This document shows, piece after piece, positions 6,505 through 24,039 of a stretch of 64,000 bases of DNA. How positions within the stretch are numbered: the first letter of the stretch is position 1; every line of letters begins with the position of its first letter. This stretch comes from Sanguibacter sp. HDW7. Lineage in GTDB: Bacteria > Actinomycetota > Actinomycetes > Actinomycetales > Cellulomonadaceae. The DNA lies in NCBI RefSeq assembly GCF_011300875.1, contig NZ_CP049862.1:496001-560000 (forward strand), read 5' to 3'. The translations under genes were made by a program, and so were the position numbers. The notes beneath the pieces were generated by a model. The model was not told the DNA's origin and searched no databases. It saw nothing but the letters and a program-made list of their open reading frames with translations.

Positions 6505-7316
6505 GCGTGCCCGCGGACGCCGTGACGACGGTCCTCGCGTCGGCGGGCACGACGGTCTTCTCCGGCTCGCTCCTGCTCGCCCTGCCGATCGCGCTCCTCG
6601 CGGGTGTCGTGTCGTTCGCGTCGCCGTGCGTGCTGCCGCTCCTGCCGGGCTACCTCGGGTTCCTCGGCGGCATGGCCGGGCAGGGCGCGGCGCGCCCCGT
6701 TCCTGCGGCCGACGGCACCCTTGCCGTCGCGGCCCCGCGGCGCGGCCGACTCCTGCTCGGCGTCGCGCTGTTCGTCCTCGGCTTCACCATTGTCTTCGTC
6801 GCGTACGGCGCGCTCTTCGGCCAGGTCGGCGCGCAGCTCGCGCAGCACCAGACGACGATCACCCGCTGGCTCGGCGCGATCGTCATCCTCATGGGTCTTG
6901 CGTTCCTCGGGGCGTTCGCGCCCCTCCAGCGCACGGTGCGCCTCCCCGTCGTCCCGACCGCGGGCCTCGGCGGCGCCCCCCTGCTCGGCGTCGTCTTCGG
7001 TCTCGGCTGGACGCCCTGCATGGGGCCCACCCTCGTCGCGATCTCCGCGCTGTCCCTCGAGCAGGGGACGGCCGCGCGTGGCGCGATCCTCGCGATCGCC
7101 TACTGCCTCGGCCTGGGCCTGCCGTTCCTCGGCATCGCCCTCGGCCTCGACTCCTCGAAGAAGATGGTGGAGCTCATGCGCGCGCACCGCGTCGGCATCT
7201 CCCGGGCGGGTGGGGTGATGCTCGTCCTCATCGGCCTCGCGCTCGTCACAGGCCTGTGGGCGAGCTGGACGCAGTCCCTCGCCGGGACCATCGGCGGATT
7301 CGAGACACTCCTGTGA
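6501..7316 (+). CDS. ccdA: CcdA-type membrane thiol-disulfide transporter (cytochrome c biogenesis)
   Basis: 271 residues with about six hydrophobic segments. The family's two membrane cysteines are present in FASPCVLPLLPGYLGFLGG and GLGWTPCMGPTL. CcdA passes reducing equivalents from cytoplasmic thioredoxin across the membrane to the TlpA/ResA-like protein. It starts at GTG 6501, overlapping the upstream stop, and its own stop overlaps the GTG of resB. Confidence 0.95.
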   Translation: MSVPADAVTTVLASAGTTVFSGSLLLALPIALLAGVVSFASPCVLPLLPGYLGFLGGMAGQGAARPVPAADGTLAVAAPRRGRLLLGVALFVLGFTIVFVAYGALFGQVGAQLAQHQTTITRWLGAIVILMGLAFLGAFAPLQRTVRLPVVPTAGLGGAPLLGVVFGLGWTPCMGPTLVAISALSLEQGTAARGAILAIAYCLGLGLPFLGIALGLDSSKKMVELMRAHRVGISRAGGVMLVLIGLALVTGLWASWTQSLAGTIGGFETLL

Positions 7317-9031
7317 ACGCGTACCGCCCCGAGGGCATCGACGACGCGTTCACCGAGGACGGCGCCGCGCCGCAGCGCACGTCGAAGGGCTCGGGCGAGC
7401 TGCCCGCGCTCGGCGTCGTCGGCTGGATCCGCTGGGGCTGGCGCCAGCTGACGAGCATGCGGGTTGCGCTCCTGCTCCTCATGCTCCTCGCGGTCGCGGC
7501 CGTGCCCGGCTCGACCATCCCGCAGCGCCCGCAGGACCCGTCGAAGGTCGTGGAGTTCTTCGACAAGAACCCGGACGTCGCACCGTGGCTCGACAAGCTG
7601 CAGATGTTCGACGTCTACGGCTCGGTGTGGTTCTCGGCGATCTACCTGCTGCTCTTCGTCTCGCTCGTCGGTTGCATCCTGCCGCGCGCGAAGGTCCACT
7701 GGGTCGCGCTGCGCGCGCGCCCGCCCCGCACCCCGCGCCGCCTGGGGCGCTACCCAGCGCAGGGGGCGCGCACGTACGCGGCCGAGTACACGCCGGACCA
7801 GGTCGCCGAGGCCGCCGCCGCGCACCTGCGGGGCCGCGGCCCGCTGCCGCGCTTCCGCGTCGAGCGCGGCACCGAGACGAGCCCCGGCGTGCGCGCTCCC
7901 GAGGGCGAGCCCGGGCCCGTCCACGTCGTCGCCGCCGAGCGCGGCTACCTGCGCGAGACCGGCAACATCCTCTTCCACCTCGCCCTCGTCGGTCTGCTCA
8001 TCTCGGTGGGGCTCGGGCAGGCGTTCCAGTACCGGGGCCAGGCGATCGTCGTCCAGGGCCGCGGCTTCGCGAACTCCGTGAGCGCGTACGACACCTTCGC
8101 GAAGGGCCCGTGGTTCCGCGAGGAGAGCCTGCCGCCGTTCACGATGGTGCTCGACGAGTTCACGTCGACGTTCACGGACGACCCCGTGCCCGTCGCGAAG
8201 GACTTCACGGCGTTCGTCTCCGTGACGGACCCGGCCGGCACGCGCCCCGAGACGGTGAAGGTCAACCACCCGCTGAAGATCGAGGGCGCCAAGGTCTACC
8301 TCCAGGGCAACGGCTACGCGCCGCGCCTCACGGTCAAGGACGCCGACGGCAACGTGACGTTCGCGGGCACGGTGCCGTTCATCCCCGAGGACCAGGTGTA
8401 CACGTCGCGCGGCGTCGTCAAGGTGCCCGACGTCGTCACGGGCGAGCAGATCGGCCTCGTCGGCTACCTCCTGCCGACCGCCCAGCTCACGGCTCAGGGC
8501 GTCCGGTCGCTGCACCCGGGCCTGCTCAACCCCGTCGTCGTCCTCACCGTGTGGACGGGCGACCTGGGTCTCGACGACGGCGTGCCGCAGAACGTCTACG
8601 AGCTCGAGACGAAGGACATGACGCAGGCGCGAACGTCCGACGGCGAGCCCGTGACGCTCATGCTCACGCCGGGGCAGACGCTCGACCTGCCTGACGGCCT
8701 CGGCACGCTCACGCTCGAGGACATCCCGCGCTTCGTGGCCCTCGACCTGCGCCACGACCCGGCGCTCACGTGGATCGCGATCTTCGCGTTCTCTGCGATC
8801 GGCGGGCTCATGCTGTCGCTCTTCACGCCGCGCCGCCGCGTGTGGCTGCGCGTGAGCACCCGTTCCGACGCGGACGGCACCGCGCGTACAGTGGTCGAGA
8901 CCGCAGGCCTGGCGCGCACGGACGATGCCGGCCTGCAACCCGAGGTAGACGCCCTGCTCGCGTACCTCGATGCCCATGATCCTGCGCCGGATACCCGTCC
9001 GACGACCGACGACCCTGGAGACACCCCATGA
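7313..9031 (+). CDS. resB: ResB, system II cytochrome c biogenesis protein
   Basis: 572 residues. GTG 7313 overlaps the ccdA stop. Transmembrane segments are visible near residues 45-65 (MRVALLLLMLLAVAAVPGS), 100-120, 222-240 (LFHLALVGLLISVGLG) and 480-500, with a large extracytoplasmic region (about 245-475) between the last two, as in ResB/Ccs1. With CcsB it forms the heme delivery and ligation complex of system II. The last about 60 residues form a cytoplasmic tail. The stop overlaps the ATG of ccsB. Confidence 0.95.
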   Translation: MNAYRPEGIDDAFTEDGAAPQRTSKGSGELPALGVVGWIRWGWRQLTSMRVALLLLMLLAVAAVPGSTIPQRPQDPSKVVEFFDKNPDVAPWLDKLQMFDVYGSVWFSAIYLLLFVSLVGCILPRAKVHWVALRARPPRTPRRLGRYPAQGARTYAAEYTPDQVAEAAAAHLRGRGPLPRFRVERGTETSPGVRAPEGEPGPVHVVAAERGYLRETGNILFHLALVGLLISVGLGQAFQYRGQAIVVQGRGFANSVSAYDTFAKGPWFREESLPPFTMVLDEFTSTFTDDPVPVAKDFTAFVSVTDPAGTRPETVKVNHPLKIEGAKVYLQGNGYAPRLTVKDADGNVTFAGTVPFIPEDQVYTSRGVVKVPDVVTGEQIGLVGYLLPTAQLTAQGVRSLHPGLLNPVVVLTVWTGDLGLDDGVPQNVYELETKDMTQARTSDGEPVTLMLTPGQTLDLPDGLGTLTLEDIPRFVALDLRHDPALTWIAIFAFSAIGGLMLSLFTPRRRVWLRVSTRSDADGTARTVVETAGLARTDDAGLQPEVDALLAYLDAHDPAPDTRPTTDDPGDTP

Positions 9032-10077
9032 CCACCGTCGGTGAGATGAGCGACCTCCTCGCCTGGGGGACCGCGAGCGCCTATGCCATCGCGTTCGTCG
9101 CCTTCGCGATCGACCTCTCCGGACGCCTCGGCGTCCGCTCCGTCGCCCGTGAGGAGGTCGCGGTCGGCGCTGCAACCGCGACGCCGACGTCCGGGGCGTC
9201 GACCGTCGCCACGGACGTCGTCGACCCTGCGGTCCGTGACACGACGAGCGCCGGCGCGGTCTCCGAGGCCACGGCCCGGCGCGCCGCGTCCCTCACCTCC
9301 CCGTGGAAGGCGTGGAGCGTCTCGAAGCCGCTCGGCATCGCGATGTCGGTCGCGTGGATGGGCCTCGCGCTGCACCTCGCCGCCATCGTCACGCGCGGCG
9401 TCGCCGCCGGGCGCGCGCCGTGGGCGAACCTCTACGAGTTCGTGCTCGTGGGCGCGTTCTTCGCGATGGGAGTGTTCCTCGTCGTGCAGCGGCGCTGGGA
9501 CATCCGCTTCCTCGGCGTCATCGTCTCGGGGCTCGTGACGCTCGCGATCGTCGTCGCGCTCAACGCGTTCCACGTCGCGGCCGCCGGCGTGCAGCCCGCG
9601 CTGCAGTCGTACTGGCTCGTCATCCACGTGGGCATCGCGGTGTTCGCGACGGGCATCTTCACGGTCGCGTTCGCGGCGTCGGTCACGCAGCTGCTGCGGG
9701 AGTCGCGCGACGAGGGTTCGCCGATGCTCGCGTCGCGCATGTGGTCGTGGCTCGACCAGGTGCCGACGGCTGCGCAGCTCGAGCTGCTGAGCTTCCGCAT
9801 CAACGCGGTCGGCTTCGTCCTGTGGACGTTCACGCTCGTCTCGGGCTCCGTGTGGGCAGAGGACGCGTGGGGCCGCTACTGGGGCTGGGACCCCAAGGAG
9901 GTCTGGTCGTTCGTCATCTGGGTCGTCTACGCGGCGTACCTGCACGCGCGGACGACGCGCGGCTGGTCCGGGCGTCGGGCGGCGTGGTTCGTCGTCGTCG
10001 GCTACCTGTGCGTCCTGTTCAACTTCACGGGCGTCAACATCCTCTTCAGCGGCAAGCACTCCTACTCGGGCGTCTGA
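9028..10077 (+). CDS. ccsB: CcsB/ResC, heme-handling cytochrome c synthase subunit
   Basis: 349 residues, about eight membrane segments. The WWD heme-binding motif is clear (WGRYWGWDPKEVWSF, about residues 281-295). The region from about residue 30 to 90 is a hydrophilic, Ala/Thr-rich insert typical of actinobacterial CcsB. It works with ResB to export heme and attach it to apocytochrome c. It is the last gene of the operon; two tandem hairpins follow the stop. Confidence 0.95.
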   Translation: MTTVGEMSDLLAWGTASAYAIAFVAFAIDLSGRLGVRSVAREEVAVGAATATPTSGASTVATDVVDPAVRDTTSAGAVSEATARRAASLTSPWKAWSVSKPLGIAMSVAWMGLALHLAAIVTRGVAAGRAPWANLYEFVLVGAFFAMGVFLVVQRRWDIRFLGVIVSGLVTLAIVVALNAFHVAAAGVQPALQSYWLVIHVGIAVFATGIFTVAFAASVTQLLRESRDEGSPMLASRMWSWLDQVPTAAQLELLSFRINAVGFVLWTFTLVSGSVWAEDAWGRYWGWDPKEVWSFVIWVVYAAYLHARTTRGWSGRRAAWFVVVGYLCVLFNFTGVNILFSGKHSYSGV

Positions 10078-10090
10078 CAACCCACTTCCA

Positions 10091-10141
10091 CGACTCGTAG
10101 GGCCCCAGCACCGTTCGATGGCGCTGGGGCCCTACGAGTCG
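10091..10141. repeat. Intergenic hairpin, GACTCGTAG type, copy 1
   Basis: Perfect 19-bp inverted repeat (10091-10109 with 10123-10141) beginning CGACTCGTAGG. The loop region holds CCGTTCGATGG, the core shared with other hairpins in this window. It lies 13 bases after the ccsB stop, between convergent genes, and probably also acts as a terminator. Confidence 0.8.
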
Positions 10142-10153
10142 CTGGCCCCTGGT

Positions 10154-10202
10154 GACTCGTAGGTCTGGAGCACCATCGGACGGTGCTCCAGACCTACGAG
10201 TC
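10154..10202. repeat. Intergenic hairpin, GACTCGTAG type, copy 2
   Basis: Perfect 21-bp inverted repeat (10154-10174 with 10182-10202) around a 7-base loop, 12 bases after copy 1. The outer arms begin with the same GACTCGTAGG as copy 1, but the inner halves differ. The core is CCATCGGACGG here. Confidence 0.8.
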
Positions 10203-10231
10203 GCGACGACAGGCGACGCCGCGCGGGATCG

Positions 10232-10363
10232 CTACGGCACGAGGTCGCCGAGGCCCTCGACCGCGCGCCCGGCGACCCTCGTCGCCCCGCCGAGCACGTG
10301 CCCTGCGGCCTCGCCGATCGCCTCGAACGGGAGGTCGATCCCGTCGCCGCGGCGACGGTCCCT
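10232..10363 (-). other. In-frame coding-like extension after the AIM24 stop codon
   Basis: After the TGA at 10364-10366 (minus strand) the same frame continues for 43 codons to TAG (10232-10234). Nearly every third position is G or C, and the peptide looks protein-like (IDLPFEAIGEAAGHVLGG, then an amphipathic helix). There is no start codon or ribosome site of its own before the last 21 residues. It may be the lost C-terminus of AIM24, a readthrough extension, or chance. Confidence 0.35.
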
Positions 10364-11032
10364 TCAACCGAGGTGGAAGCCCTCGCTCGGCTGGACGACG
10401 ACGACGCCCTGCCCGCCGAACGCGAGCTGGAACGTCTCGCCGGACCCGCCGCGGAGCATCGAACCGAGGCCGCCCGTGTCGACCTTGACGTTCATCTGCA
10501 CGCCCGAGGTCCACAGGACGACGGCCTGCGGGTCGCCGAACGTCGGCGCCTCGGCGACGTTGAGCGCGACGGGCTCGCCTGCCGTCGTCACGGCGACGTA
10601 GCCCGTGCCCTGGCAGACGACGTTCGAGAGCCCGCCCGCGGCCATGCCGGCGCCGGGCTTGATCATCTTGATGTCCCACTGGATCGAGTCGGAGATCGCG
10701 AGGACGCTGGCGCCGTTGATCGAGATCATGTCGTTCTCGAGGTAGATGATCTGGACGTTCGAGGCGCTGTCCGCGAGGAAGAGCTGGCCCGCGCCGGAGC
10801 ACTTCATGAGGTCGAGGCCCTCGCCGGTGACGGCGGACTTGAGGAAGCGGGCGGCACCTTGGCTCTTCTTCTCGAAGCGCACATCGCCCTGGTAGGCGAC
10901 CATGGCGCCCGACCGCGACCAGACGGGCCCGAAGCCCATGTTGATCTTGAGCATCTTGCTGCCCTGCAGGCTGAACTGGTCCTGCGAGGTGTTCTCGGCG
11001 AACTGCTGGAACAGGGCTCCGTAGAGCGTCAT
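10364..11032 (-). CDS. AIM24 family protein
   Basis: 222 residues. The AIM24/TerB-associated beta-rich fold is recognisable from GSKMLKINMGFGPVWSRSGAMVAYQGDV, FLADSASNVQIIYLENDMISING and GLSNVVCQGTGYVAVTTAGEPV. ATG 11030-11032 is preceded by AGGGGGT. The biochemical role is unknown; the name comes from a yeast mitochondrial gene. The TGA stop is followed by a further 43 coding-like codons in the same frame, so the natural product may once have been about 265 residues. The gene is separated from ccsB by a pair of tandem hairpins. Confidence 0.88.
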   Translation of the reverse strand: MTLYGALFQQFAENTSQDQFSLQGSKMLKINMGFGPVWSRSGAMVAYQGDVRFEKKSQGAARFLKSAVTGEGLDLMKCSGAGQLFLADSASNVQIIYLENDMISINGASVLAISDSIQWDIKMIKPGAGMAAGGLSNVVCQGTGYVAVTTAGEPVALNVAEAPTFGDPQAVVLWTSGVQMNVKVDTGGLGSMLRGGSGETFQLAFGGQGVVVVQPSEGFHLG

Positions 11033-11136
11033 GCTGCACCCCCTGGGTCGCGGTCCCCGTGCGGGACCTCCGTCGACAAGATATCGACGCGGGGGGTGGA
11101 TGCGCGCGGGGACGCCCCGTGCGGTGCGTCCGCAGG

Positions 11137-11520
11137 TCAGCGCGGGCTGTCGTCCGCGGTGGGCGGGGTCGTGCCGTCGGTCCCGGCCTCACCGGCACGA
11201 CGACGACGCTCCTGCTCGAGGCGCCAGAGGAACTCGGGGTCGTCGTCAGGCGCGACGGGTCCCTGGCGACCGGGTGCGGGTGCGCCGCCGGGGGCGGTGC
11301 GCATGCCGCCACGGGGGCCGCCGAGGGCCTCGCCGCGGCTGCGGCGGCCGTTGAGGCTCACGGCGAACCACACGACGGAGCCGAGCACGGGGATGAGGAC
11401 GACGAGGACGATCCAGATGCCGCGGGGCAGGCCGTGGAGGTCCTCGTCGGGAGCGTTGATGATGTCCGTGACCGTGTAGACGACGACGGCGACGAGCAGC
11501 AGGAACCCGACGTAGCGCAT
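11137..11520 (-). CDS. PLDc_N domain membrane protein
   Basis: 127 residues. Two membrane segments (about 4-20 and 33-54: GIWIVLVVLIPVLGSVVWF) with a short link match the PLDc_N domain, the membrane part seen before phospholipase D domains but here alone. A basic, Pro/Gly-rich cytoplasmic tail follows, with PEFLWRLEQERRRR near the end, as in other actinobacterial stand-alone PLDc_N proteins. The function is unknown. It is divergent from the DUF4229 gene over only 31 bases, with TAGGCT exactly 6 bases before the ATG, so the transcript is probably leaderless. Confidence 0.8.
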   Translation of the reverse strand: MRYVGFLLLVAVVVYTVTDIINAPDEDLHGLPRGIWIVLVVLIPVLGSVVWFAVSLNGRRSRGEALGGPRGGMRTAPGGAPAPGRQGPVAPDDDPEFLWRLEQERRRRAGEAGTDGTTPPTADDSPR

Positions 11521-11524
11521 GGGG

Positions 11525-19267: not shown

Positions 19268-20029
19268 GTGTACGCCCCGGAACGCCAGACCGAGATCGTC
19301 ACCCGAGCCCGCAACGCCGGCCGCGTCGACGTGGCGACGCTCGCCGCGGAGCTCGACGTCGCCGCCGAGACCATCCGCCGAGACCTCGGTCTCCTCGAGC
19401 GCCGCGGCCTGCTGCGCCGCGTCCACGGCGGCGCCGTCCCCGTCGAGCGGCTCGCGCTCGAGCCCTCCGTCGACGAGCGCGACCTCGCCAACACCGAGGC
19501 GAAGGACGCGATCGCCCGCGCGGCGCTCACCCTCCTCGGCGACGCGTCGACGATCGTCCTCGACGGCGGCACGACGACCGCGCGGCTCGCCGCGCTCCTG
19601 CCCGAGGGCCGCGAGCTCACCGTCATCACCCACGCGCTGCCCGTCGCCGCCGCCGTCGCGACCCGCCCCGGCATCACGCTCCACCTCGTCGGAGGTCACG
19701 TCCGCGGCCGCACGCTCGTCGCGACCGGCCCCTGGACGACGGCGGCACTCGCCGAGCTCCGCGCGGACGTCGTCGTCCTCGGCGCCAACGGTGTGAGCGT
19801 CGACCGCGGCCTCACGACGCCCGACCTCGCCGAGGCCGAGGCCAAGCGTGCGCTCGCCGCCGCCGGCCGCCGCGTCGTCGTCCTCGCCGACCACACGAAG
19901 ATCGGCCGCGACGAGCTCGTCACGTTCGCCCCGCTCGAGCGCGTCGACATGCTCGTCACCGACGCCGTCGTCGCCCCGGACCTCGTCGCGGAGCTTGTCG
20001 CAGCCGGGGTCGAGGTCGTGACGGCATGA
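19268..20029 (+). CDS. fruR: DeoR/GlpR family repressor of the fructose operon
   Basis: 253 residues, GTG start with GAGGAG 8 bases upstream. The N-terminal DeoR helix-turn-helix is clear (VDVATLAAELDVAAETIRRDLGLLERRGLLRRVHGGAVP). The C-terminal DeoRC sugar-phosphate sensor domain has LDGGTTTARLAALLP, LHLVGGHVRGRTLVATGPWT and DHTKIGRDELVTFAPL. In such operons the effector is usually fructose-1-phosphate or fructose-1,6-bisphosphate. Its stop overlaps the ATG of fruK, so repressor and enzymes are made from one message and the repressor is autoregulated if the upstream repeats are its sites. Confidence 0.9.
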   Translation: MYAPERQTEIVTRARNAGRVDVATLAAELDVAAETIRRDLGLLERRGLLRRVHGGAVPVERLALEPSVDERDLANTEAKDAIARAALTLLGDASTIVLDGGTTTARLAALLPEGRELTVITHALPVAAAVATRPGITLHLVGGHVRGRTLVATGPWTTAALAELRADVVVLGANGVSVDRGLTTPDLAEAEAKRALAAAGRRVVVLADHTKIGRDELVTFAPLERVDMLVTDAVVAPDLVAELVAAGVEVVTA

Positions 20030-20979
20030 TCGTCACCCTCACCCCCAACCCGTCCGTCGACCGCGCCTACGACGTCGAGGCCGTCGCGCGCGGCGGCGTC
20101 AACCGCGCGGGCGCCGTCCACGTGCACCCCGGCGGCAAGGGCATCAACGTCTCGCGCGCGCTCGCCGCGCACACCGTCCCGACGGTCGCGGTCCTGCCCG
20201 TCGGCGGCGCCGACGGCGACCTGCTCGTCGCGCTCCTCGGCGCCACCGACGTCACCGTGCGAGCCGTGCCCGTCCCGGGCGACACCCGCTCGAACATCAC
20301 GCTCCAGGAGTCCGACGGCACGACGACGAAGATCAACGCCCCCGGCCCGGTGCTCGACGCCGACGGGGGAGCCCGCCTGCTCGCCGCCGTCGTGAGCGCC
20401 GTCGGCCCGGGCGACACCGTCGTCGGCGCAGGTTCCCTTCCCCGCGGTCTCGCACCCGACTTCTACGTCACGCTCGCGGACGCCGTCCGCGAGCGCGGCG
20501 CACGCCTCGTCCTCGACACCTCGGGCGCCCCGCTCGCCTCGGCCGCCCGGGCGGGCGGCATCGCGCTCGCCAAGCCCAACGACGACGAGCTCGCCGAGCT
20601 CGTCGGCCGCGAGCTCGCGACCGTCGGCGACGTCGTCGAGGCGGCCCGCGAGATCCTCGCGCGCGGGACCGACGCTCTCCTCGTCTCTCTCGGCGCGCAC
20701 GGCGCGCTCCTCGTCACGGCCGACCGCTCCTGGTGGGCCGGCGGCCCCCCGCTCCTGCCCGCGTCGACCGTCGGCGCGGGCGACACGACCCTCGCCGGCT
20801 ACCTCGCCGCCGAGCACGCAGGCGGCGACCCTGCCACCTGCCTGCGCACCGCGGTCGCCTGGGGGCGCGCCGCGGTGCTCCTGCCCGGGACCGCCGTCCC
20901 GGGACCCGACCTCGTCGACGTCGACGCGGTCACCCTCACCCCCGACCCCGCACCGACCACCCCCGTCAAGGAGATGTAG
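20026..20979 (+). CDS. fruK: 1-Phosphofructokinase
   Basis: 317 residues, a PfkB-family sugar kinase. It starts MIVTLTPNPSVDRAYDV, with the first signature HPGGKGINVSRALAAH (about 40-55) and the ATP/catalytic motif STVGAGDTTLAGYLAAEHAGG containing the base Asp. It phosphorylates fructose-1-phosphate, the product of the PTS encoded next, to fructose-1,6-bisphosphate. ATG 20026 overlaps the fruR stop. Confidence 0.93.
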   Translation: MIVTLTPNPSVDRAYDVEAVARGGVNRAGAVHVHPGGKGINVSRALAAHTVPTVAVLPVGGADGDLLVALLGATDVTVRAVPVPGDTRSNITLQESDGTTTKINAPGPVLDADGGARLLAAVVSAVGPGDTVVGAGSLPRGLAPDFYVTLADAVRERGARLVLDTSGAPLASAARAGGIALAKPNDDELAELVGRELATVGDVVEAAREILARGTDALLVSLGAHGALLVTADRSWWAGGPPLLPASTVGAGDTTLAGYLAAEHAGGDPATCLRTAVAWGRAAVLLPGTAVPGPDLVDVDAVTLTPDPAPTTPVKEM

Positions 20980-20981
20980 AC

Positions 20982-21434
20982 ATGACCAGCCAGCTCATCA
21001 CCGCGGACCTCGTGGCCATCGACCTCGCTGCCGCGACGAAGGACGTCGTCATCGAGGCGCTCGCCGAGCGTCTCGCCGCCGCCGGACGCGTCACCGACGG
21101 CGAGACCTTCGCCGCCGACGTCCGCGCCCGCGAGGCGCAGACCCCGACCGGCCTGCCCGGACAGGTCGGCCTCCCGCACGCGAAGTCGGACGCTGTCCTC
21201 ACCCCCTCGCTCGCCGTCGCGACCGTCCCCGGCGGCGTCGACTTCGGCGGGCCCGACGGCCCCTCGACGCTCGTCTTCCTCATCGCGGCCCCCGCGCTGG
21301 GCGACAACGTCCACCTCCAGATCCTCGCGAAGCTCGCGCGCAAGCTCATGAACGCCGAGTTCATGGCGTCCGTGCGCGCCGCCACCGACGGCGAGACGCT
21401 CGCCGCCCTCGTCAACGAGGCGGTCACGGCATGA
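20982..21434 (+). CDS. Fructose-specific PTS EIIA component
   Basis: 150 residues, a stand-alone EIIA of the mannitol/fructose family. The phospho-accepting residue is His66 in QVGLPHAKSD. LVFLIAAPALGDNVHLQILAKLARKLMNAEF is the usual second half. It takes phosphate from HPr and passes it to the EIIB domain of the next gene. AAGGAG precedes the start, and its stop overlaps the ATG of the EIIBC gene. Confidence 0.92.
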   Translation: MTSQLITADLVAIDLAAATKDVVIEALAERLAAAGRVTDGETFAADVRAREAQTPTGLPGQVGLPHAKSDAVLTPSLAVATVPGGVDFGGPDGPSTLVFLIAAPALGDNVHLQILAKLARKLMNAEFMASVRAATDGETLAALVNEAVTA

Positions 21435-22933
21435 GGTTCGTCGCCGTGACGTCCTGCCCCACGGGCATCGCCCACACCTACATGGCTGCCGAGGCCCTCG
21501 AGCAGACGGGCAAGGCACAGGGCCACGAGGTGACGGTCGAGACGCAGGGCTCGATCGGCTCGGAGCCGCTCGACCCCGCGGTCATCGCGGCGGCCGACGG
21601 CGTGATCTTCGCCGCCGACCTCGAGGTCAAGGAACGCGACCGCTTCGCAGGCCTGCCGACGGTCGACGTCGGCGTCAAGCGTGCCGTGCACGACCCGGCC
21701 GCCGTCCTCGCCGAGGCCGTCGCCGCCGTCGAGGCCGCCGCAGCGCTCCCTGCCGCCGAGCGTCCCGTCGCGGCCCCTGCGCCGTCGCGGGCCACGTCGG
21801 CGTCGGGGGCGACGAGGGTCCGCCAGTGGCTCATGACGGGTGTCTCGCACATGATCCCGTTCGTCGCTGCGGGCGGCATCCTCATCGCCCTGAGCTTCAT
21901 GCTCGCGCAGGTCGCGTGGGGCGGCGCCGAGGGCGCCGTCGAGGTGACGGGCGCCGACGCGGCCGCGATCTTCGCGTCGTTCGACCCGCTGAGCCTTCAG
22001 CACTGGTCGGTCGTCCTCCTCAAGACCGGCCAGCTCGCGTTCGGGTTCCTCGTGCCGGTCCTCTCGGGCTACATCGCGTACGCGATCGCCGACCGTCCCG
22101 GCCTCGTTCCCGGCTTCGTCGGCGGTGCGGCCGCGGGCTTCATCGGAGCGGGCTTCCTCGGCGGCCTCGTCACCGGCTTCGCGGCGGGCTTCGTCGCCCT
22201 GTGGATCAGCCGCTGGAAGGTCGCCAAGGGTGTGCGCGGCATCATGCCGGTCGTCGTCATCCCGCTGCTGTCGTCGCTCGTCATCGGTGTGCTCATGCTC
22301 GTCCTCCTGGGCCGGCCGATCGCCGCAGCGATGGATGGCCTCACGGACTGGCTCGGTGGCCTCCAGGGTGGCTCGATCATCCTGCTCGGTGCGCTGCTCG
22401 GCGCCATGATGGGCTTCGACCTCGGCGGCCCGGTCAACAAGGTCGCCTACACGTTCGGCGTCACGGGTCTCGCGACCGCAGGCCTCACGCCCGACTCCCC
22501 GCAGTACAAGGTCATGGCCGCGGTCATGCTCGGCGGCATGGTCGCGCCCCTCGCGCTCGCCCTCGCGACCGTCGTGCGCCCGCGCCTCTTCACGGAGGTC
22601 GAGCGCGAGAACGGCAAGGCCGCGTGGCTGCTCGGCGCGTCGTTCATCTCCGAGGGCGCGATCCCGTTCGCGGCGGCCGACCCGTGGCGCGTCATCCTCG
22701 CCTCGACGGTCGGCTCGGCCGTCACCGGGGCCGTGTCGATGGGTATGGGTGTCTCGCTCGTCGCACCGCACGGAGGTGTGTGGGTGCTGCCGCTCGTCGG
22801 CAACGCGCTCGGCTTCGTCGTCGCGATCCTCGCCGGTGTCGCCGTCGCGTGCGCGCTCGTCGTCCTCCTCAAGCAGACGCGCAGGGTGCCCGTGGCGGCC
22901 GCGGGGCCCGTCCTGGCCGGCCAGGACGCGTGA
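21431..22933 (+). CDS. fruA: Fructose-specific PTS EIIBC component
   Basis: 500 residues. EIIB domain (about 1-100): VTSCPTGIAHTYMAAEAL with phospho-Cys9. A 30-residue Ala-rich linker is followed by the membrane EIIC domain (about 130-490): WLMTGVSHMIPFVAAGGILIALSFML, GFDLGGPVNKVAYTFG and LGASFISEGAIPFAAADPWR, the motifs of fructose permeases. It imports fructose as fructose-1-phosphate. The domain order is B-C, with EIIA as a separate protein. Its stop shares a base with a short Enzyme I-like reading frame. Confidence 0.95.
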   Translation: MRFVAVTSCPTGIAHTYMAAEALEQTGKAQGHEVTVETQGSIGSEPLDPAVIAAADGVIFAADLEVKERDRFAGLPTVDVGVKRAVHDPAAVLAEAVAAVEAAAALPAAERPVAAPAPSRATSASGATRVRQWLMTGVSHMIPFVAAGGILIALSFMLAQVAWGGAEGAVEVTGADAAAIFASFDPLSLQHWSVVLLKTGQLAFGFLVPVLSGYIAYAIADRPGLVPGFVGGAAAGFIGAGFLGGLVTGFAAGFVALWISRWKVAKGVRGIMPVVVIPLLSSLVIGVLMLVLLGRPIAAAMDGLTDWLGGLQGGSIILLGALLGAMMGFDLGGPVNKVAYTFGVTGLATAGLTPDSPQYKVMAAVMLGGMVAPLALALATVVRPRLFTEVERENGKAAWLLGASFISEGAIPFAAADPWRVILASTVGSAVTGAVSMGMGVSLVAPHGGVWVLPLVGNALGFVVAILAGVAVACALVVLLKQTRRVPVAAAGPVLAGQDA

Positions 22934-23064
22934 TGACCGCGCCACGGACCCTCGAGGGAGTGGGCGTCGGCCGCAGCGCGGTCGTCGGCCCGGTCGCGCG
23001 GTCCGTGCGCGGTGTCCTGCGGCGCGCCCGGCGTGCCGCAGGACACCGCGGGCGCTGTCACTAG
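22933..23064 (+). pseudogene. Enzyme I (PTS) N-terminal remnant
   Basis: A 43-residue reading frame starting at ATG 22933 within the fruA stop. Its first part, RTLEGVGVGRSAVVGPVAR, matches the start of PTS Enzyme I (xLxGxGVxxGxxVGPV), the gene often found at this spot in actinobacterial fru operons. The match ends after about 25 residues and the frame runs into a perfect terminator-like hairpin. The swivelling His domain and all later parts are missing. I read it as a deletion remnant; no HPr gene is present either. A translated short peptide cannot be excluded. Confidence 0.55.
23008..23050 (+). terminator. Hairpin terminator of the fructose operon
   Basis: Perfect 16-bp stem (23008-23023 with 23035-23050), 11-base loop. 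It lies inside the Enzyme I-like remnant frame, and its right arm overlaps the expected -35 position of menC. Confidence 0.7.
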
Positions 23065-23067
23065 TCT
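23062..23067 (+). promoter_or_regulatory. -10 element of menC (leaderless)
   Basis: TAGTCT exactly 6 bases before the menC ATG. CAGGAC lies 17 bases upstream, the same hexamer and spacing as before menG. Confidence 0.55.
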
Positions 23068-23073
23068 GGGGCG

Positions 23074-24039
23074 ATGCACGTCTACTCGATCCCGCTGACG
23101 ACCCGCTTCCGCCGCATCGACGTGCGCGAGGGCGTGCTCCTGCACGGCCCGGGGGGATGGGCCGAGTTCTCGCCCTTCGCCGACTACGACGACGTCGAGT
23201 CGTCGTCCTGGCTGCGTGCCGCGCTCGAGGCGGCGCGCGAGGCGCACCCGCCCGCCGTGCGTGACCGCATCCCCGTCAACGTCACGGTGCCGGCGGTCGA
23301 CGGGCCGCGCGCCCACGCGGTCGTGCGCGCGTCCGGTGGCTGCGAGACGGCGAAGGTCAAGGTCGCCGAGCCGGGGCAGTCGGAGGCCGACGAGATCGAG
23401 CGGCTCGAGGCCGTGCGCGACGCGCTCGGCCCGTCGGGCCGCATCCGGATCGACGCGAACGGCGGCTGGGACGTCGCCACCGCGCTCGCACGTCTCACGG
23501 TCCTCGACCGGGCGGCGGGCGGCCTCGAGTACGTCGAGCAGCCGTGCGCGAGCGTCGACGATCTTGCGGCGGTGCGCCGCCGCACGCACGTACTGGTCGC
23601 GGCCGACGAGTCGATCCGCCGCGCGGAGGATCCCTTCGAGGTCGTGCGGCGCGAGGCGGCGGACGTCGTCGTCCTCAAGGTGCAGCCGCTCGGCGGCGTC
23701 CGCGCGTGCCTGCGGCTCGCCGAGGAGATCGGTCTGCCCGTCGTCGTGTCGTCCGCGCTCGAGTCGTCGGTCGGCCTGGCCGACGGCCTCGCGCTCGCGG
23801 CCGCGCTGCCGGAGCTTCCGTACGCGTGCGGCCTCGCGACCGCGCACCTGCTCACCGACGACACCGTGGTCCGGCCGCTCGTGCCCGTCGGCGGGTCGAT
23901 CGGCGTGCGTCGGCCCGTCGTGGCCCCGGCCGCTCTCGCGCGCACCGCCGCGTCCGACGACGTCGCCGCCGCGTGGCGCGACCGGCTCGAGCGGTGCGCG
24001 GCCGTGCTCGGCGAGGACCTCGCCGACGTCCTGGGATGA
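23074..24039 (+). CDS. menC: o-Succinylbenzoate synthase
   Basis: 321 residues, enolase-superfamily MenC. Catalytic residues are visible: Lys94/Lys96 in AKVKV, metal ligands Asp127 (RIDANGG), Glu155 (YVEQPC) and Asp178 (AADES), and Lys202 in VLKVQPLGG. It dehydrates SHCHC to o-succinylbenzoate. The ATG has TAGTCT 6 bases upstream and no ribosome site. menD follows after 7 bases, so the two are co-transcribed. Confidence 0.94.
   Translation: MHVYSIPLTTRFRRIDVREGVLLHGPGGWAEFSPFADYDDVESSSWLRAALEAAREAHPPAVRDRIPVNVTVPAVDGPRAHAVVRASGGCETAKVKVAEPGQSEADEIERLEAVRDALGPSGRIRIDANGGWDVATALARLTVLDRAAGGLEYVEQPCASVDDLAAVRRRTHVLVAADESIRRAEDPFEVVRREAADVVVLKVQPLGGVRACLRLAEEIGLPVVVSSALESSVGLADGLALAAALPELPYACGLATAHLLTDDTVVRPLVPVGGSIGVRRPVVAPAALARTAASDDVAAAWRDRLERCAAVLGEDLADVLG

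Follow-up and report, generated by a model that had tools for sequence, protein, structure and literature searches.

The fru operon in the stretch of the Sanguibacter sp. HDW7 chromosome analysed here (64,000 nucleotides; hereafter the window) is followed by a frame of only 43 codons, which a preliminary description had read as an N-terminal remnant of PTS Enzyme I (EI). Is this frame what is left of a ptsI gene, and from where could the fructose transporter FruA then draw its phosphate?

A short frame between fruA and menC

The window has the order fruA, 43-codon frame, hairpin and menC (Table 1). Operon context and resemblance suggest the name fruA for the IIBC gene, in which no Pfam IIC model was matched at 1e-5. 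The kinase gene is presumably fruK, from its place in the operon, and the enolase-superfamily gene is one that we take to be menC. The frame starts with an ATG at 22933, its TAG ends at 23064, and it encodes the 43 residues MTAPRTLEGVGVGRSAVVGPVARSVRGVLRRARRAAGHRGRCH, exactly as first described. Base 22933 is common to the fruA stop codon TGA (22931-22933) and the ATG of the frame, thereby confirming the coupling to fruA through one shared base. The statement that neither HPr nor a full EI is encoded here also held, as no match to EI and none to HPr was found anywhere in the window. Six bases before the menC-like ATG lies the sequence TAGTCT (23062-23067), the first three bases of which are the stop codon of the 43-codon frame, and TAGGGT occupies the same place in the nearest genome of the genus, G003 (locus L103, 10545-10550). 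Both resemble the -10 element of a leaderless transcript.

Table 1. Features of the fru locus in the window and at locus L103 of G003, the nearest genome of the genus
Feature	Sequence	Coordinates	Strand	Remarks
fruR-like DeoR regulator	Window	19268-20029	+	Pfam DeoRC 6.9e-49, HTH_DeoR 1.5e-13
fruK-like kinase (PfkB family)	Window	20026-20979	+	Pfam PfkB 2.8e-45
Fructose-type PTS IIA	Window	20982-21434	+	Pfam PTS_EIIA_2 1.9e-30
fruA IIBC	Window	21431-22933	+	Pfam PTS_IIB 2.6e-20; 93% identical to G003 FruA
43-codon frame	Window	22933-23064	+	22951-23001 (residues 7-23) align to EI start; remainder enters hairpin
Near-perfect hairpin, possible terminator without T-run	Window	23008-23050	+	Arms 23008-23028 and 23030-23050
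menC-like enolase-superfamily gene	Window	23074-24039	+	Pfam MR_MLE_C 1.4e-36, Enolase_like_N 1.5e-25
fruA	L103 (G003)	6805-8292		
HPr	L103 (G003)	8439-8702		
EI	L103 (G003)	8699-10411		Begins MTAGGRRLAGVGVGRGAVVGPVALVRAP
menC-like gene	L103 (G003)	10557-11522		

Likeness of the frame to the start of Enzyme I

We prepared a profile of 27 columns from 16 EI starts of named records, all lying beside fruA, and searched with it a set of 20,957 sequences consisting of the 43-mer, 956 six-frame pieces of the window and 20,000 composition shuffles. The 43-mer took the top rank at 19.4 bits (E 7e-4 within this set), as compared to 14.5 bits for the best of the shuffles. A window piece that also reached 14.5 bits was the longer stop-to-stop piece enclosing the 43-mer. 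The 43-mer again came first when G003 and G004 were included in the profile (19.8 bits) and when G004 alone was added (18.9 bits). By the profile of 16 starts, an EI start sequence is thus present in the frame, and the claim that it begins like EI stands. The part aligned was residues 7-23, 17 residues only, which makes the original figure of about 25 matching residues slightly generous. The start of the stub, L-GVGVGR-AVVGPV, is closer to the fru-type EIs of Cellulomonas and Jonesia than to the EI resident elsewhere in the genome (MTSMLTGVPVSPGRVVG). On sequence likeness, the first 17 to 25 codons or so of the frame are the start of a fructose-operon-specific EI.

That the likeness arose by chance, in a glycine- and valine-rich frame downstream of fruA, is a reading of practically negligible probability. 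It would agree with the 17-residue extent of the alignment and with the lack of any match to the 43-mer in Pfam or NCBIfam even at E 10, a blank probably due to the shortness of the piece, but it is opposed by the first rank among all sequences searched, shuffles included, and by the agreement of position, start and downstream gene with a sister locus holding the intact gene. The model PF05524 was not relied on; the complete EI of G003 gave no match to it at 1e-5, and the genome search there gave 2.2e-13. The stub lacks the phospho-histidine mobile domain PF00391, which a whole-genome search placed at two other sites only. It also lacks the PEP-binding domain PF02896, the frame being 43 aa long and free of Pfam matches; PF02896 was found in the resident EI as well as in the EI of G003. 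Devoid of both domains, the stub therefore cannot transfer phosphate.

A stable hairpin inside the frame

The frame had been described as running into a terminator hairpin. The hairpin is present, with arms of 21 nt that are 95% complementary, and the region 22990-23075 has an MFE of -59.3 kcal/mol with a z of -3.88. The structure at 23008-23050 has the stable, G+C-rich hairpin of an intrinsic terminator. The T-run expected after the stem is absent and a terminator scan of 22800-23300 gave 0 sites, leaving the terminator part of the claim unproven. We rejected the hairpin as a dispersed repeat, since besides itself and its reverse complement it had 41 other matches, all short and with E 4.6e-4 or worse; a second full copy was not found in the genome.

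The 43-mer might instead be a functional small protein or a regulatory leader, the translation of which carries the ribosome through the hairpin with read-through into menC, a reading that we consider very unlikely. The frame starts on the fruA stop and spans the whole hairpin, its own stop ending 14 nt beyond, and translation coupled to fruA would open the hairpin and therefore permit such read-through. However, the G+C content by codon position in codons 27-43 (0.94/0.76/0.71) departs from that in codons 1-26 (0.81/0.65/0.92), few as these codons are, and the menC-like gene would seem to own the presumed -10-like element just upstream. Retention of the stub as a switch coupled to translation is highly improbable; ribosomes leaving fruA would then restart on the stub ATG and pass the hairpin so that menC is transcribed, and such a switch, if true, would link fructose uptake to the menC gene.

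Enzyme I and HPr beside fruA in related genomes

One genome per species was compared. Within the genus, a FruA match was present in 4 of 6 genomes, that of the window counted, and the remaining three all carry an additional EI next to fruA; all 6 genomes have at least one EI. At locus L103 of G003, fruA is followed by HPr, a complete EI of 570 aa and the menC-like gene, and the stop codon of HPr and the start codon of EI overlap (ATGA), whereas the window keeps only the start of EI and no HPr. An intact EI orthologue occupies the position of the stub in G003, G001 and G004 and in 25 of 30 family loci. Relatives do therefore keep ptsI after fruA, as had been expected, with HPr in between. The fru-operon EIs of G003, Cellulomonas iranensis (L010) and Jonesia quinghaiensis (L009) follow fruA just as the stub does and share with it the start L-G-GVGR-AV-GP-; in G003 the following gene is shared as well. 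The loci of relatives and the purpose-built profile both support the reading of the frame as an EI remnant.

In a draw of 121 family genomes, FruA was matched in 35 and EI in all 121. We read 30 family fruA loci, each reaching about 1.5 kb beyond the FruA match, and found fruA followed by HPr and EI in 21, by EI only in 4 (L124, L126, L140 and L141, without detectable HPr), by neither in 4 (L123, L125, L127 and L135) and by a stub in 1, the window. EI lies at most 2 kb downstream in at least 27 of the 35 genomes with a FruA match, 5 of these 35 being judged by coordinate lists only. Among these five, EI adjoins fruA in G065 and G076, and none was found beside fruA in G009, G010 and G050 among the matches listed, where a weak neighbour could escape. 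Named records gave EI on the same strand downstream of fruA in 16 of 80 loci (best 80 of 591), including all 6 Cellulomonas records, Jonesia and Oerskovia. The named and family sets overlap (for example, L009/L118, L015/L135, L016/L134 and L017/L131 share identical fruA tails), and therefore their counts must not be summed. Other EI stubs were found neither in the 64 named loci without EI, some on short contigs (best other match E 0.49), nor in the 4 further family loci that lack EI, which argues against a functional small protein.

Two named loci of Cellulomonas hominis (L011 and L012) have EI and no HPr match. In these and in L124, L126, L140 and L141, EI comes after fruA with no detectable HPr between them, 96-331 nt separating the fruA stop and the EI match; such loci would therefore need HPr from elsewhere. 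L012 and L126 may represent the same organism.

General Enzyme I and HPr elsewhere in the chromosome

The chromosome is a single contig of 3,351,553 bases with a completeness of 99.99. It contains one EI N-domain above the family cut-off and one EI match, at 2.54 Mb, as compared to 0.52 Mb for fruA (contig coordinates). This resident EI (L007, 5484-7157), of 557 aa and with all three EI Pfam domains, belongs to the same protein family as the stub but has a start of the other paralogue type. An HPr gene lies beside it, convergent with the EI gene. Of two HPr domains in the genome neither adjoins fruA, and the second sits in what is presumably a DhaM-like protein, beside genes that we take to be DhaK/DhaL-like. 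An assembly artefact, with the strain in fact carrying an intact fru EI and HPr, has a very slim chance of being the explanation. Dependence on a single assembly speaks for it, but the single-contig chromosome, its completeness and the genome-wide tally of EI and HPr domains speak against it.

The claim that phosphate must come from elsewhere in the genome is in line with the complete ptsI and ptsH found in the same chromosome, and FruA can therefore be fed from there. Given the presence of both genes, the most likely phosphate donors for FruA and its IIA are the general EI and HPr, and the resident EI probably supplies the function that the stub has lost. The resident EI also adjoins an apparent PTS sugar transporter, recognised by eye.

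Proposed loss of HPr and Enzyme I

We consider it very probable that the frame represents the 5' remainder of a paralogous, fru-operon-specific ptsI, that HPr was lost too, and that the general EI and HPr would be taking over. Both genes are lost at the fruA position of the window, where no match to either follows fruA; a complete general set is kept elsewhere, and the case is therefore one of ordinary, fairly recent gene decay. The order seen in the sister, fruA-HPr-EI-menC, would be ancestral. One loss would have excised HPr together with the spacer between fruA and HPr, perhaps at stretches of similar sequence with which the two genes end. What remained of HPr would be a short tail, now read as the C-terminus of fruA, and the EI start codon would have come to lie on the fruA stop. 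A second loss would have removed the bulk of EI, starting near codon 25 and ending shortly upstream of menC.

A 36-nt segment of the window that ends in ATGACC agrees with the junction of HPr end and EI start in G003 at 26 of 36 positions, and of 15,965 positions in the 16-kb locus only this one attains such agreement. With the EI bases left out, the 14 nt preceding the ATG show 10 identities, as many as are attained at 36 of 15,987 positions. The last fruA codons, at about 22904-22933, may thus derive from the end of the HPr gene that was lost, a reading that becomes weaker once the EI start bases are removed. In G003, fruA and HPr both end in a copy of a 19-nt direct repeat (18/19), which is seen there and not in the window; codon shuffles scored as high in none of 300 trials in one series and in 1 of 60 in another. 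When the two repeat copies were joined and the product was aligned without gaps to the window, only 32 of 42 bases were identical, and EI bases account for 9 of them. Deletion between such repeats is a reasonable, though unproven, cause of the HPr loss, and under that model the last FruA residues of the window would be an HPr relic. Long repeats of the fruA and HPr tails found no support as a family-wide cause, as among the loci with HPr only G003 stood out (score 16, against 6-11 in the others). The sharing of one base with fruA seems to have come about through the HPr loss; in the sister it is the stop of HPr that the EI start overlaps.

For the second deletion, neither the 30-nt tandem repeat after the G003 EI nor G+C-rich microhomologies, considered as deletion ends, fixed the joint. 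The repeat (L103, 10399-10505) has 3.6 copies and lies at the end of EI towards menC.

Across the 16 core codons alignable between the window and G003, first and second positions show 2 differences in 32 and fourfold sites 5 in 14; fourfold divergence of the two genomes is 84/334 in fruA and 61/220 in menC. The probability of at most 2 changes in 32 is 0.007 at a neutral rate of 0.25, 0.03 at 0.20 and 0.12 at 0.15, in what is a small and rough test. The EI-like piece was probably under coding constraint during most of the time since the split from G003. The low divergence at first and second positions therefore means that either EI was truncated only recently or constraint on the piece persists. 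The latter would suit a small protein, but the conservation is also accounted for if the parental EI was active until recently. Most likely the remnant has no function and is young.

Comparison with described fructose operons

In Corynebacterium glutamicum, a cluster of ptsI, ptsH and fructose genes has been described (PMC2222622), in which ptsI is divergent and transcribed, whereas in the window an extra copy has decayed. Operons of the order deoR-fruK-fruA-ptsH are described for Propionibacterium acnes, Nocardia and corynebacteria (PMC2405797), with HPr directly after fruA as in most of the family loci read here; no EI is named in that operon. Lineage-specific loss of PTS genes in Actinobacteria is already on record (PMC2405797). 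Among the papers found by a literature search on actinobacterial fructose operons and ptsI pseudogenes, no description of this stub was noted.

The remnant thus presents a PTS operon caught losing its private phosphate-transfer pair, and relatives display HPr with EI, EI only, a stub, or nothing after fruA. The series suggests a route from a self-contained fructose PTS to dependence on the general EI and HPr, relevant mainly for the annotation of PTS genes and for studies of paralogue loss.

Two further observations concern other members of the group. The fruA match comes in two pieces in G049 (L138), with a TAG inside, and in G076 (G076:C1:1324366-1325867); frameshifts may have affected the genes of these family members. 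G005, which belongs to the genus but gave no FruA match, carries a fru-type EI with HPr before it (L107, 4351-6266), and the two are 62% and 49% identical, respectively, to their counterparts in G003.
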